Shown here one piece after another: positions 3,630 to 57,350 of a DNA stretch of 64,000 nt; position 1 is the first letter of the stretch; each line of letters begins with the position of its first letter. The notes beneath the pieces are model-generated. The model worked only from the letters and a program-made list of their open reading frames with translations. It was not told the origin of the DNA and did no database searches. The DNA comes from a virus. The stretch spans positions 1-64,000 of the IMG/VR virus record IMGVR_UViG_3300036790_000366; one strand, written 5' to 3'. The translations under genes were made by a program, and so were the position numbers.

Positions 3630-3989
3630 ATGGCAATGAAGAGATACCGGTTCATGGCACTGGCCGACAACTACCAAGTCCCGCGCGGGTATTTGCGCGG
3701 CACGCTCACGACTCACCAAGGTTTCGACGAGAGCGCCTACGTCGTGTCGTTCGAGGGAGTTCCCAAGAGCGCGCACCATGCAACCTACGTGCTGGACTTC
3801 GGAACGAGCGTGGAAGTCCGGTGGGTTGCCGGTTGGGCATCCGAAGATCTCAATCAGATCTTTCTCCAGCCCTTCCCGCTCAACGTCGGCACGCGGCCGG
3901 ACAACGGAAGGCCGATCGACATGTCCATGTGGATGCTGGGCCCGCGCCCCGCGTTCCACCTGAAGTTGACGGAGATTGAGAAGTGGTGA
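3630..3989 (+). CDS. Hypothetical protein (119 aa)
   Basis: ATG 3630 with an upstream AATGAGGGT site; a second ATG two codons on is possible. The sequence looks like a beta-rich domain (VSFEGVPKSAHHATYVLDFG, SVEVRWVAGWASEDLN), followed by a hydrophobic Met/Pro-rich segment. No family recognised. The next gene starts inside its final codons. Confidence 0.78.
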   Translation: MAMKRYRFMALADNYQVPRGYLRGTLTTHQGFDESAYVVSFEGVPKSAHHATYVLDFGTSVEVRWVAGWASEDLNQIFLQPFPLNVGTRPDNGRPIDMSMWMLGPRPAFHLKLTEIEKW

Positions 3990-4180
3990 CCGGCGGAGTC
4001 AACGGCGGTCCGTGCGTCTCAGGCACGGCGGACTGCCCGTGCTGCGGCTACCCCACCATGGTGGCGGATTGGCGCATTCCGGAGCTCTGTCCGGAGTGCG
4101 TGATGCACGACTGCGACATGTACGTCGAATGCAGCGTGCCAACCGACGCGTGGCCGTACGACACTGATCCGCGCGACTGA
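3983..4180 (+). CDS. Small double CxxC zinc-ribbon protein
   Basis: 65 residues starting at GTG 3983 (GTG 3986 is also possible), overlapping the previous gene by 7 nt. Contains CPCCG, then CPEC, then C and C (DCDMYVEC), a classic zinc-ribbon spacing. The C-terminus is acidic. A structural zinc site is likely; the partner is unknown. Confidence 0.7.
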   Translation: MVTGGVNGGPCVSGTADCPCCGYPTMVADWRIPELCPECVMHDCDMYVECSVPTDAWPYDTDPRD

Positions 4181-4194
4181 GTTTCTTGCGTGTC

Positions 4195-4256
4195 CCACCC
4201 CTACTCTCCTCAGGGGTGGTTCGCGCTGGAATCTCAATCAGAGGTTCTATCGAGAA
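4195..4256 (+). other. Leader hairpins
   Basis: Perfect 8-bp stem CCACCCCT/AGGGGTGG (4195-4202, 4212-4219) with a 9-nt loop, then a weaker TTCT/AGAA hairpin (4245-4256), then GAGAAAGGTTGA before ATG 4275. No T run follows the first hairpin, so termination is not obvious. Confidence 0.45.
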
Positions 4257-4912: not shown

Positions 4913-6367
4913 ATGCAGGGAGTACTGGACGGATACGAAGTGCCAGACGCCTACGCTGTGCCGCTCGGTATCGACATGGAGAGCGGCAAGCGGGTGAGTC
5001 TGGACGTCCGGAAGTTCACGCAGCACGGTTTCATCGGCGGCGCGACCGGAGTCGGCAAGACGCGCACCCTTCAGCAGATCATCGAATGGTGCTCGCAGCG
5101 CGGTATCCCCGCTCTGGCCGTTGACGGCAAGGGCGACATGGGCGGTCTGGCCATCGCGGCCGAGGCGACTCGAGAGATTCTGGACCGCGTGCAGGATCTC
5201 GGGCAGGACGAATGGTGGGACGGCACTTCGACGCCGGTGGAATTTTTGGCTCTCGGCGGGAATGGCTCGGGCGTGCCCGTGAAGGTCTCCGCCAAGACGT
5301 TCCCCTACAAGATGCTGGCCCGTGTCATCGGCTTGACCAAGCCGCAGACGACGGGCCTCGGCTACGCCTACCTGGCGTCCAAGAATGCCACGTCCGGCGA
5401 CATGCACACGTTGGAGCAGCTCAGAGAATTCGTCCGCGGTATCAAGGACGACCCTGACAGCTCCCTCAGTGAAGCGGTGGCGAACCGCATCATCGCGCAG
5501 TCGCAGCTTTTCGAGGAGTCCAACCCTGGAATCTTCGGCGCACCGGAATTCGACCCGATGGACATCATCCGGAGGGACGATGGGTGGGGGCAGGTCTCGA
5601 TCATCGATTCCGCCGCCCTCGCAGACAATCCGGAAGTCATGACCACGTTCCTTTTGTGGTTCATGGATAAGCTTTCCAAGGTGCTGCCGCAGACGACGCA
5701 GGTGCTCCCCAAGCTCATGGTCTTCATCGATGAGGCGCACGCGTTGTTCGACCAGCCGTCACCGGAACTCAAGAAGGAATTCGTCCGCGAGTTCACCGGA
5801 ATGATCAAAAAGCTTCGTTCTCAGGGCGTCGGGATCTTCCTGATCTCGCAGTCTGCGGACGACATTCCGGAAAAGGTCATGCAGCAGATCGGTTCCCGTG
5901 TCCAGCACGCGCTGCGTGCGAACACGGTCCGCGAAGCGCGTGCCGTCAAGCGGACCGCGGAGACCTTCCCCATATCCAAGACGTACGACGTGGCGTCGGA
6001 GATCACGGAGATGGGGACCGGTGAGGCCATCGTCTCTGTGCTCAATGACGACGGCCGCATGACCCCTACCACGGTCGTCCGGATGTACGTCCCGCGGTCT
6101 TCCATGGATCCGCTGGATCCGGGAGTGCAGGCGGAGATAATCCATGCCAGCGAACTTCGTAAGAAGTACGCGAGACTGGCAAAGGAACAGCGCGAAGCAG
6201 AGCACCGGGCGTCGGTACCGGCAGCGCCGATCGTGGCTACGCGGCCTTCCAAGGGGCCGCAGGGCGACGACGACGGCGACAGCCCAGTGGAGCGCATGCG
6301 GAAGCGTCTGCGGTCCGGTAGCGGCGTCGTGACACTTGACGAGTGGGCTACCAGCACGACGGAGTAG
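4913..6367 (+). CDS. HerA/DUF853-like AAA ATPase
   Basis: 484 residues from ATG 4913, after CAGAAAGGTTGAGAA. Walker A GATGVGKT is at residues 43-50 and the Walker B acidic pair is D273-E274 in VFIDEAHALF. A Ser-Gln-Ser motif (ISQSADDIPEK) resembles sensor 1, and Arg residues follow. The strand order and the phrase AVDGKGDMGGLA resemble bacterial DUF853 (YjgR-type) relatives of HerA/FtsK, hexameric ATPases that move or remodel DNA. In a phage such a protein might act in DNA ejection, in processing or against host defence; none of this is shown. It is the only large gene in this block. The C-terminal 60 residues are charged and disordered. Confidence 0.85.
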   Translation: MQGVLDGYEVPDAYAVPLGIDMESGKRVSLDVRKFTQHGFIGGATGVGKTRTLQQIIEWCSQRGIPALAVDGKGDMGGLAIAAEATREILDRVQDLGQDEWWDGTSTPVEFLALGGNGSGVPVKVSAKTFPYKMLARVIGLTKPQTTGLGYAYLASKNATSGDMHTLEQLREFVRGIKDDPDSSLSEAVANRIIAQSQLFEESNPGIFGAPEFDPMDIIRRDDGWGQVSIIDSAALADNPEVMTTFLLWFMDKLSKVLPQTTQVLPKLMVFIDEAHALFDQPSPELKKEFVREFTGMIKKLRSQGVGIFLISQSADDIPEKVMQQIGSRVQHALRANTVREARAVKRTAETFPISKTYDVASEITEMGTGEAIVSVLNDDGRMTPTTVVRMYVPRSSMDPLDPGVQAEIIHASELRKKYARLAKEQREAEHRASVPAAPIVATRPSKGPQGDDDGDSPVERMRKRLRSGSGVVTLDEWATSTTE

Positions 6368-10954: not shown

Positions 10955-10992
10955 GGGCCCTCCATGGGATGTTGGAGTCAGGTGCTTGGGGA

Positions 10993-11058
10993 CAAAAATA
11001 CCCCGTCTGAAGCAAGGCACAAGGCGTACGGGCCGAGTTTCTCAAACTTCAGACGGGG
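10993..11058 (-). terminator. Terminator of the tRNA transcription unit
   Basis: On the minus strand a perfect 12-bp stem (arms 11047-11058 and 11001-11012) is followed by TATTTTTGTC (11000-10991). It lies downstream of all the tRNA genes and upstream of the gene at 10954. Confidence 0.85.
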
Positions 11059-11143
11059 ATCGTGCCGGAGCTTCGCGAGGTCTGGGCGGACCGCTCCGCT
11101 CCCTTCCACGAGGAGGCGGCCTCATGGTGGGAAGTTTTTGGGT

Positions 11144-11210
11144 GGGGTGGGCGCAGTACTTCTGTGGCGTTGAAGATACTCCGTGGAGAGGGACTCCGAG
11201 CGCCCACCCC
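11144..11210 (-). ncRNA. Long-stem branched RNA element in the tRNA unit
   Basis: A 67-nt element closed by a perfect 11-bp stem (11200-11210 with 11144-11154). Inside are a GGAG/CTCC hairpin and an 8-bp hairpin with one bulge around a 9-nt loop. It is close to tRNA length but has no T-loop sequence, so it is not called a tRNA. Function unknown. It shares the word GCGCAGTACT with the leader hairpin at 11635-11678. Confidence 0.4.
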
Positions 11211-11250
11211 TATGCAGTTGTCGCTTTGCCGTGGTGGTAAGTGCTGTGTT

Positions 11251-11328
11251 CTACAGCATCTTTCCTCCAACCCTTCGGGAGCAGGGGCATCGGTAAAACA
11301 GGTAAGACGAGCAGTTTTTGCAGGACAT
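11251..11328 (-). CDS. Possible 25-aa zinc-knuckle peptide
   Basis: ATG at 11328 to a stop at 11251, inside the tRNA unit. The peptide contains CKNC and, eight residues later, CPC, with several Arg/Lys, so it resembles a minimal zinc knuckle. The ribosome-binding site is weak (GACCTGAGC), so expression is uncertain. It could equally be chance in a structured RNA. Confidence 0.3.
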   Translation of the reverse strand: MSCKNCSSYLFYRCPCSRRVGGKML

Positions 11329-11346
11329 GCTCAGGTCCCGGTAGAG

Positions 11347-11374
11347 GGTCGCAACAACTAAGTTGCCAGCGACC
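11347..11374 (-). other. Hairpin 3' of tRNA-Glu(TTC)
   Basis: GGTCGC/GCGACC outer arms with an inner CAAC/GTTG stem. It begins 8 nt past the 3' end of the tRNA at 11383 on the minus strand, and probably marks or protects a 3' processing site. Confidence 0.45.
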
Positions 11375-11382
11375 ATACCACG

Positions 11383-11457
11383 TAGCCATGACGGGATTTG
11401 AACCCGCGATCTCCTACTTGAAAGGAAGGCGAGCTTTCCGAACAGCTCCACATGGCT
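11383..11457 (-). tRNA. tRNA-Glu (anticodon TTC)
   Basis: A 75-nt cloverleaf. Acceptor AGCCATG/CATGGCT has 7 pairs and discriminator A. D arm GAGC-10 nt-GCTC contains GG. The anticodon arm CCTTC/GTAGG has one mismatch and loop CTTTCAA, giving TTC. The variable loop is 5 nt and the T arm is GCGGG-TTCAAAT-CCCGT. CCA is not encoded. Its 5' end lies 4 nt after a strong leader hairpin (11462-11508). Confidence 0.9.
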
Positions 11458-11461
11458 TAGA

Positions 11462-11508
11462 GGGTGGTACAGAATCTAGTAGGCGCTAGATGCCCATCTG
11501 CACCACCC
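11462..11508 (-). other. Leader hairpin of tRNA-Glu(TTC)
   Basis: An 11-bp stem (11498-11508 with 11462-11472, one G-U pair) encloses ATCTAG/CTAGAT. It ends 4 nt upstream of the mature 5' end of the tRNA. Equivalent elements precede the other tRNAs. Confidence 0.6.
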
Positions 11509-11555
11509 CACCCTTGGCAGGGTCACAACCCTAATCACCCACGAGAACGAGGGCG

Positions 11556-11629
11556 CAGCCGGTACGGGATTCGAACCCGTAGTCTTCGCCTTGAGAGAGC
11601 GATGAGATTTCCATTTACTCCAACCAGCC
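11556..11629 (-). tRNA. tRNA-Glu (anticodon CTC)
   Basis: A 74-nt cloverleaf. Acceptor GGCTGGT/ACCGGCT includes two G-U pairs. The D arm has a 3-bp GAG/CTC stem and a GG loop. Anticodon arm TCGCT-CTCTCAA-GGCGA gives CTC. The variable loop is 5 nt and the T arm is ACGGG-TTCGAAT-CCCGT. CCA is not encoded. Together with the TTC tRNA it covers both Glu codons. Confidence 0.85.
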
Positions 11630-11634
11630 TTGCA

Positions 11635-11678
11635 GGCAGCGCAGTACTCGCCACAACGAGTCGTTACACCGCGCTGCC
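11635..11678 (-). other. Leader hairpin of tRNA-Glu(CTC)
   Basis: Perfect 8-bp stem GGCAGCGC/GCGCTGCC (11671-11678 with 11635-11642) enclosing an ACTCG/CGAGT hairpin. It ends 5 nt before the tRNA 5' end. Confidence 0.6.
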
Positions 11679-11745
11679 CTCTTGCGAATGAAGCAACCCA
11701 TACCAGCCCACTGGGATGGTGGTGCCCGGCCGTGGAGGCCAAGCG

Positions 11746-11817
11746 CGCCAAGAGAGGGAGTCGAACTCTCATATCCGGTTTCGTAAACCGGTGCTCTTTC
11801 CGTTGAGCTACCTCGGC
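11746..11817 (-). tRNA. tRNA-Arg (anticodon ACG)
   Basis: A 72-nt cloverleaf. Acceptor GCCGAGG/TCTTGGC has three G-U pairs and discriminator G. D arm GCTC-AACGGAAA-GAGC. Anticodon arm CCGGT-TTACGAA-ACCGG gives ACG, which would be ICG if the A34 deaminase acts. The variable loop is 4 nt. T arm GAGAG-TTCGACT-CCCTC has one mismatch. CCA is not encoded. Confidence 0.87.
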
Positions 11818-11819
11818 AT

Positions 11820-11868
11820 GGACGACGGCCCGGTCTGTGTAACCCATTAGACAGGCGAGCCGCCGCCC
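11820..11868 (-). other. Leader hairpin of tRNA-Arg
   Basis: A 10-bp stem with two G-U pairs (11859-11868 with 11820-11830) enclosing a GTCT/AGAC hairpin. It ends 2 nt before the tRNA 5' end. Same architecture as the leaders of the two Glu tRNAs. Confidence 0.6.
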
Positions 11869-11910
11869 TTTCCCAAACACCCGACCACGTACACCGTGGA
11901 AGGGCCGTGC

Positions 11911-11984
11911 GCGGAGAAGGCGATCAATGCGGGAAACATCCTAAGCCCGGTCTCGTCTTAATAGAGAACCTGTACCTTCTCCGC
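11911..11984 (-). ncRNA. tRNA-sized long-stem RNA element
   Basis: A 74-nt element closed by a perfect 10-bp stem GCGGAGAAGG/CCTTCTCCGC. Inside, on the minus strand, are a GGT-CTC/GAG-ACC hairpin and a CGGG/CCCG hairpin with a 12-nt loop. There is no T-loop consensus and no clear D arm, so it is not a standard tRNA. It may be a decayed or specialised tRNA-like RNA. Confidence 0.45.
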
Positions 11985-12009
11985 TGCTGTGCGTCCCTTG
12001 CGGGACTAG

Positions 12010-12156
12010 GAGCCCCGGACGGATTCGAACCGCCATCTTCTCTGGGTGCTCCGTGGACGATCGACTTGTGCAAAGCAGCGCACTTCAGAAAGGTTGAAAC
12101 TAAAGTTCGCCTACCGTCCACGGCAGAGGTGTTCTTCCTCTTGAACTACTGGGGCC
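12010..12156 (-). tRNA. Interrupted tRNA-like gene, structured insertion in the anticodon arm
   Basis: Both ends read as a tRNA. The acceptor is GGCCCCA against CGGGGCT (12011-12017) with one mismatch or bulge. D arm GTTC-AAGAGGAA-GAAC (12131-12146). T arm GGCGG-TTCGAAT-CCGTC (12018-12034) is canonical, preceded by a 5-nt variable loop. The anticodon stem is CTCTG/CAGAG (12124-12128, 12040-12044), but its loop is 79 nt instead of 7. The loop starts with a 9-bp stem stacked directly on the anticodon stem (12115-12123 with 12051-12059), and the rest can fold into small hairpins. Amino-acid identity cannot be assigned. It is either an intron-bearing tRNA or a tRNA mimic. Confidence 0.6.
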
Positions 12157-12257
12157 ATGGACACCGGCCGGTCTCACGTATGTTGCAGCTACGCCACCCG
12201 GGGGAGACAGGGTGACCTGCCCCTCTACAAAGCAGGGAGGTACAACCGGTGCCACTA

Positions 12258-12286
12258 CCGCGGGGAGGATCGGTGTTTCCCCGCGG
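12258..12286 (-). other. GC-rich hairpin in the tRNA-unit leader
   Basis: Perfect 9-bp stem CCGCGGGGA/TCCCCGCGG with an 11-nt loop, about 150 nt downstream of the promoter at 12441-12469. There is no T run on either strand, so a processing or stability element is more likely than a terminator. In the rest of 12157-12432 I see only weaker pairings, including a CCTGC/GCAGG arm with an 11-nt loop near 12219-12239. Confidence 0.5.
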
Positions 12287-12440
12287 AAGACAAATAATCA
12301 TCGCTGTGAAGTTTTCAAGTATCGAGGCACAAGACCGGCGCGGGGTCCGACCGTCATACATGGACGAGGGTAGGCGCCTAGGTATGAATTTTGGGTGGTG
12401 CTGCGGTGCTTTCCGGCCGCGCCGGTCTGTGCTGGTCTCA

Positions 12441-12469
12441 AAGCTAGTGGGAGTCTTGAGTTGTGTCAA
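12441..12469 (-). promoter_or_regulatory. Promoter of the tRNA unit
   Basis: On the minus strand a perfect TTGACA (12469-12464), a 17-bp spacer and TAGCTT (12446-12441). This is the best promoter match I found in the window. It lies between the stop of the tail fibre gene and the tRNA cluster, so the tRNAs have their own start signal. Confidence 0.7.
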
Positions 12470-12487
12470 ATGATGCAGGTGGGACGG

Positions 12488-57282: not shown

Positions 57283-57350
57283 CGGACCGGACGGGAATCG
57301 AACCCGTGACCGAGGCGTATTGCTCTGCTCTACCACTGAGCTACCGGCCC
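57283..57350 (-). tRNA. tRNA-like gene with shortened anticodon arm (68 nt)
   Basis: Acceptor GGGCCGG/CCGGTCC (one G-U pair), discriminator G. D arm GCTC-AGTGGTA-GAGC and T arm ACGGG-TTCGATT-CCCGT are textbook. Only 18 nt lie between D arm and T arm (after A26) where 21-22 are normal, and they do not form a 5-bp stem with a 7-nt loop. The best fold is GAG/CTC around an 8-nt loop. No anticodon can be assigned. It is either a decayed tRNA or a functional mimic lacking decoding ability. Confidence 0.65.

Follow-up and report, generated by a model that had tools for sequence, protein, structure and literature searches.

The window analysed here comprises 64,000 nt (positions 1 to 64,000 of IMG/VR virus record IMGVR_UViG_3300036790_000366) and is part of a 76-kb virus contig. 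The DnaE polymerase of this virus is 43–45% identical to those of Gordonia Bendigovirus phages and Brevibacterium phage Cantare, and RecA, DnaB, primase-like, Mu-type portal and capsid genes are also carried. These genes identify the source, a soil-type phage, as an actinophage-like tailed phage. None of the five phage relatives examined contained tRNAs. No coding ORFs were called between 10,702 and 12,487, and a short ORF was seen by eye to end near 10,960. The intervening noncoding region holds three ordinary tRNA genes, a terminator-like stem and an unusual tRNA-like RNA near 12 kb (Table 1). Judged from the genes and tRNAs, this array region appears to be transcribed leftward. A further tRNA of the same phage, at 57283–57350 (−), has an anticodon stem of only 3 bp and an 8-nt loop; it is reported by the Rfam tRNA model but not by default ARAGORN, and is probably truncated or decayed.

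The array region is rich in secondary structure. Between 10702 and 12487, seven short-spaced perfect inverted repeats of 9 bp or longer were found, where shuffles gave 0.6 ± 0.8 and other tiles of the window a median of one. The helix that closes the insert described below is one of these seven. Across 120-nt windows, the array region gave a mean folding z of −1.27, compared with −0.5 to +0.3 in four coding stretches. Stem-closed modules, in which perfect repeats of 9–12 bp enclose 11–73 nt, are packed between the tRNAs (10960–12487), and none of them had an Rfam match. The motif GTCCATG closely precedes the tRNA-like element, also precedes tRNA-Arg, and recurs at about 12364–12370. These modules and motifs are perhaps processing sites or further small RNAs.

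Table 1. Features of the tRNA-like RNA and of the surrounding array (window coordinates).
Feature	Position	Strand	Evidence or remark
tRNA-like RNA with extended anticodon arm, whole element	12009..12156	-	148 nt; ARAGORN with introns only; unconstrained MFE
Acceptor 5′ strand GGCCCC (G1-U72)	12151..12156	-	fold; pair probabilities 0.7–1.0
Bulged or mismatched A after acceptor 5′ strand	12150	-	MFE fold
D arm GTTC-AAGAGGAA-GAAC	12131..12146	-	sequence; pair probability 0.85
Anticodon stem 5′ strand CTCTG	12124..12128	-	pair probability 0.9
79-nt insert replacing anticodon loop	12045..12123	-	
9-bp helix 5′ strand CCGTGGACG	12115..12123	-	perfect inverted repeat; 2/20,000 shuffles
Inner hairpin of insert	12077..12111	-	core pair probability 0.65–0.95
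9-bp helix 3′ strand CGTCCACGG	12051..12059	-	perfect inverted repeat; pair probabilities
Spacer of six unpaired nt, AGCACC, from helix to anticodon stem	12045..12050	-	MFE fold
Anticodon stem 3′ strand CAGAG	12040..12044	-	pair probabilities
T arm GGCGG-TTCGAAT-CCGTC	12018..12034	-	pair probabilities
Acceptor 3′ strand GGGGCT, then C73; CCA not encoded	12011..12016	-	sequence
tRNA-Arg(ACG), ordinary neighbour	11745..11817	-	
tRNA-Glu(CTC), ordinary neighbour	11555..11629	-	
tRNA-Glu(TTC), ordinary neighbour	11382..11457	-	
Terminator-like 12-bp stem with T-rich tail, end of RNA array	10994..11058	-	stem 11058–11001, then TATTTTTG
Noncoding hairpin-rich region with tRNA array, about 1.5 kb	10960..12487	-	ORF calls; inverted repeats

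The tRNA-like RNA reads, 5′ to 3′, GGCCCCAGTA GTTC AAGAGGAA GAAC AC CTCTG, then the 79-nt insert, then CAGAG AAGAT GGCGG TTCGAAT CCGTC C GGGGCT C, where AAGAT is the variable loop. The insert begins with CCGTGGACG and ends with CGTCCACGG AGCACC. G18G19 in the D loop and the key bases of the T loop are intact, and the anticodon loop is gone. The D and T arms thus carry the conserved bases of a decoding tRNA. In place of a regular 7-bp acceptor, an irregular stem was found, with G1-U72, five G-C pairs and then an A-C mismatch or a bulged A plus one extra nucleotide. The perfect helix of the insert grows to 11 bp with a G-U and a U-A pair. It stacks on the 5′ side of the anticodon stem, and AGCACC is left unpaired on the 3′ side.

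Folding statistics were consistent with this architecture. The unconstrained MFE structure of the minus strand is this long-armed cloverleaf (−54.1 kcal/mol, z −2.1), and the insert folded alone gave a z of −2.8. A 9-bp terminal helix was reached in 2 of 20,000 dinucleotide shuffles of the insert, and the closing helix is beyond chance. Pair probabilities were 0.7–1.0 for the acceptor, D, anticodon and helix pairs; in the T stem they were 0.60–0.63 for the first two pairs and 0.93 for the remaining ones. These results bear out a preliminary description of the locus, which had noted an intact CTCTG/CAGAG stem, an insert of 79 nt (exactly so, 12123–12045) in place of the anticodon loop and a perfect 9-bp stem stacked on the anticodon stem. 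Its claim of tRNA-like arms held for the D arm, T arm and variable loop; the acceptor proved irregular. It had also named tRNA finders as a check. Default ARAGORN made no call, and the Rfam tRNA model gave no match to 12009–12156 even at E ≤ 10. ARAGORN with introns allowed, the only gene caller to report the element, called it a tRNA-His(GTG) with a 72-nt intron.

Relatives of the 12-kb RNA were sought in viral contigs and phage records with exact and degenerate patterns, by blastn on phages and through the neighbours' proteins, and none was found. Nor was an orthologous locus found; the sole overlap with one record (L049) is a tail-fibre-like protein. Use of a pattern modelled on the 12-kb element retrieved tRNA-like RNAs in L054 (3127–3235, −), L088 (7283–7389), L094, L171, L172 and L173, in which the anticodon arm is 47–49 nt longer. 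They share the hairpin CCGACTAGTAGGCCACTAGTT, followed by a conserved structured 3′ element of about 85 nt, and their farther flanks differ. These GCCCCA RNAs were rejected as homologues, having a different insert and their own conserved 3′ element. The single match among genome contigs was in Bacteroidales (L174). ARAGORN intron-mode calls in phage loci L008, L034 and L047 were discarded as false positives.

IMG/VR was then scanned for D and T arms lying 72–100 nt apart (26 nt in a normal tRNA), which returned at least 80 loci. Among the 81 matches listed, about half were tandem ordinary tRNAs or contained one, and 41 were without an ordinary tRNA. Many phage tRNA genes among the matches listed carried 46–74 extra nt between the two arms. 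Three classes were distinguished: (a) intron-like, (b) Y-RNA-bearing and (c) those with no canonical excision, as in the window element. Some interrupted genes give perfect tRNAs once 46–70 nt are removed. For Phe(GAA) in L068 (6874–7003), Asn(GTT) in L117 (8241–8359, −) and Lys(TTT) in L129 (957–1077, −), a cut after position 28 left a perfect 5-bp arm with the loops CTGAAAA, ATGTTAA and CTTTTAA, respectively. Their inserts, of about 46–57 nt, contain a common hairpin and then a CAGCAA-like sequence, and are possibly one family of small introns. A similar motif was seen in L078, L082 and L096. In L066 (3202–3345 and 4879–4948), a tRNA-Lys(TTT) carries an insert of about 70 nt near position 36/37, with the cut near position 36. 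This 194-kb phage contig also has a Pistol ribozyme 1.5 kb from the interrupted tRNA-Lys. The Rfam tRNA model scores several of the intron-like interrupted tRNAs above threshold. Phage-borne tmRNA genes were observed in L105 (9849–10255) and L117 (8742–9115, −), on contigs that also hold interrupted tRNAs.

The Y-RNA-bearing class is marked by a helix followed by (G)UUAC, and most records with this motif hold a TROVE gene. Tandem permuted Y RNAs with tetraloop-closed acceptors lie just upstream of a Ro gene in L070 (3390–3780) and L089 (980–1460). Further permuted tRNA-like Y RNA arrays occur in L053, L057, L085, L122, L125 and L126, either upstream of a Ro gene or on one record with it. Permuted phage Y RNAs matched the YrlA model at E values of 3.6e-12 to about 1e-5; the arrays (E 3.6e-12 to 1e-6 for those tested) score below the Rfam YrlA gathering score and are likely unannotated. 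In Streptomyces phage Kenrey (L002, OQ995430), an unannotated permuted Y RNA (4955–5104; YrlA E 2.6e-5) lies 0.7 kb upstream of an annotated Ro-like gene, and a second full-length YrlA match was found at record positions 67087–67199 (E 1.7e-5).

Other members of this class keep the order of a tRNA. In L076 (IMGVR_UViG_3300005830_000265), two consecutive genes (3953–4075 and 4088–4212) have 7/7 acceptor pairs and a Y stem inside the anticodon arm, and lie downstream of the Ro gene, about 340 bp from where its ORF ends. A YrlA model match spans the junction between the two genes (E 4.8e-6), yet acceptor pairing is possible only in the tRNA register, and the genes are therefore unpermuted. Normal-order tRNA genes with mostly good acceptors and a Y-RNA-type stem, then a GUUAC-like sequence, in the anticodon arm were also seen in L080, L092, L093 and L105/L106. 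Removal of the insert yielded canonical arms, for example Arg(CCG) in L076, Lys(TTT) in L093 and Cys(GCA) in L080. The L076-type genes look, from their sequences, like unpermuted relatives of YrlA, and such genes beside a Ro gene are a more striking lead than the 12-kb element. A literature search that did not cover the main Y RNA papers returned no paper on unpermuted Y RNAs.

Several known systems resemble the 12-kb element in part. Like YrlA (RF02553), it has tRNA-like D, T and acceptor-like arms and a long stem at the place of the anticodon arm. YrlA, however, is circularly permuted, ending in the long stem with its acceptor closed, binds Ro and has a conserved motif; the 12-kb element ends in its acceptor and lacks both motif and Ro. 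The stem and tRNA-like domain of YrlA tether Rsr and PNPase (review, PMC8394870), and it has been suggested that the tRNA-like domain competitively inhibits an anticodon nuclease (PMC7790460). tmRNA also combines a tRNA-like body with other RNA at the anticodon arm, but the 12-kb element, at 148 nt, has no tag reading frame and no tmRNA call. Protein-spliced introns of archaea and eukaryotes are likewise short anticodon-loop insertions that pair with loop sequence. Their bulge–helix–bulge is a 4-bp helix between two 3-nt bulges, whereas the MFE fold here has a helix of 9–11 bp and one 6-nt bulge, and such an intron was therefore rejected. A bacterial host would not be expected to contain the splicing enzymes concerned. 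Group I introns of bacterial tRNA genes are also anticodon-arm insertions. Their catalytic core takes roughly 200 nt or more, and the present insert is far shorter than any of them. The Lak megaphage introns (Devoto et al., 2019, PMC6784885), with which introns in phage tRNAs were first claimed, similarly interrupt tRNA genes with sequence of unknown nature. For those genes the tRNA type was assigned after removal, while the 12-kb element yields no canonical anticodon loop.

The last point was established by enumerating all single excisions that leave an anticodon arm of tRNA length. No excision combined a stem of 4 bp or more with a 7-nt loop carrying U33. On a 5-bp stem, the possible loops were GAGCACC, CAGCACC, CCGCACC, CCGTACC, CCGTGCC, CCGTGGC and CCGTGGA; the last two would read GTG (His), but with C33. 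The best excision in the window was no better than in shuffles (p = 0.20), and no 5-bp hairpin with a 7-nt loop, U33 and purine 37 was present elsewhere in the insert to supply an ordinary anticodon. The element thus neither shows the U33 loop on a 5-bp stem of a decoding tRNA nor acquires a canonical anticodon arm by one removal, as an intron-containing phage tRNA would. A novel intron, as raised in the preliminary description, is accordingly disfavoured. That account was also mistaken in holding that short structured inserts are not known in phage tRNAs, given the Lak-phage introns reported in 2019 (PMC6784885) and the many interrupted tRNAs of the IMG/VR scan. It was right that 79 nt, with no Rfam match, is too short for a group I intron. 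A C after the acceptor is a feature of tRNA-His, and the element may on this ground be an aberrant tRNA-His. A spliced tRNA-His(GTG), with a 72-nt intron after position 37 and its anticodon paired to the intron, would agree with the ARAGORN call, with C73 as discriminator and with the existence of intron-bearing phage tRNAs, many of them among the matches listed in the scan. It is nevertheless quite improbable: the product would carry C33, neither RNA_ligase nor RtcB families were found in the 76-kb contig, and the recurrent intron motifs of other phage tRNAs are not matched.

A highly divergent, non-permuted Y RNA, with a tRNA body, a Ro-binding stem and its Ro gene in the missing part of the genome, is less probable still, indeed very improbable. 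Its overall topology would be that of the two L076 genes, which follow a Ro gene, and the 12-kb element shares the build of these unpermuted Y-type genes. But the YrlA model, searched up to E 10, finds nothing at 12 kb, the UUAC that follows the arm helix in the phage Y RNAs examined is absent, and no Ro/TROVE gene was found in the 76-kb contig, which may be incomplete. YrlA identity was therefore rejected, and, with the ligase families absent and the intron test failed, the element was classified no more specifically than as a tRNA-like RNA whose anticodon arm is extended. The main alternative, a tRNA gene that a hairpin-forming insertion has interrupted and turned into a nonfunctional pseudogene, is unlikely but stronger. 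The irregular acceptor, the lack of relatives and the hairpin-like modules scattered over the region would fit it, as would the silence of the Rfam tRNA model when other phage tRNAs with 46–70 nt inserts score. The second abnormal tRNA of the same phage, with its 3-bp anticodon stem, also makes decay plausible. However, the four stems and both key loops are all preserved, as is a strongly closed arm, and a random insertion need not hit the anticodon loop exactly and stack on its stem.

We tentatively favour, at somewhat under an even chance, a non-decoding actinophage tRNA-like RNA, most likely a tRNA mimic, the other possibility named in the preliminary description, acting as a decoy, an inhibitor or a protein-binding scaffold. 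This reading is suggested by the long-armed cloverleaf being the unconstrained fold, by an insert placed exactly in the anticodon loop with a closing helix beyond chance, by the retention of D- and T-loop key bases while the anticodon loop is lost, by the failure of every single excision to give a U33 loop and by the position of the element in a noncoding tRNA array with many inverted repeats. Counted against the mimic are its single copy without relatives in viral contigs or phage records, its irregular acceptor and the absence of a Ro, RtcB or RNA_ligase partner family from the contig. With its loop absent, the element almost certainly cannot decode. The RNA would be transcribed from the minus strand together with the three ordinary tRNAs and the hairpins, up to the terminator, and its ends may be processed by tRNA enzymes. 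Its D arm, T arm and acceptor-like stem could be recognised by host factors that bind tRNA. The anticodon loop has given way to a rigid, side-bulged helical arm of 14–16 bp, which would make codons unreadable and would offer nothing to an anticodon nuclease. The RNA might then act against a tRNA-targeting enzyme, as decoy or inhibitor, or serve as a scaffold whose arm binds a protein, by analogy with the YrlA stem. An intact tRNA body with a blocked anticodon, considered with the roles described for YrlA (PMC8394870, PMC7790460), makes decoy or scaffold the most natural reading.

Herein, a broader proposal can be framed, which we regard as rather doubtful: the element would be a dedicated phage tRNA mimic within a largely uncatalogued set of phage genes that join a normal-order tRNA body to a structured module in place of the anticodon loop. 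Elsewhere this module would be the Ro-binding stem of a Y RNA, and those genes would be counterparts of the bacterial Y RNAs without the permutation, and possibly their ancestors. Because tRNA genes with inserts this long escape annotation pipelines, a group of phage tRNA-like RNAs has probably gone unrecorded. If such RNAs are mimics, they would bear on how phages handle tRNA-cleaving defences. Normal-order tRNAs with a Y-RNA stem beside a Ro gene would make a tRNA origin of bacterial Y RNAs directly testable.
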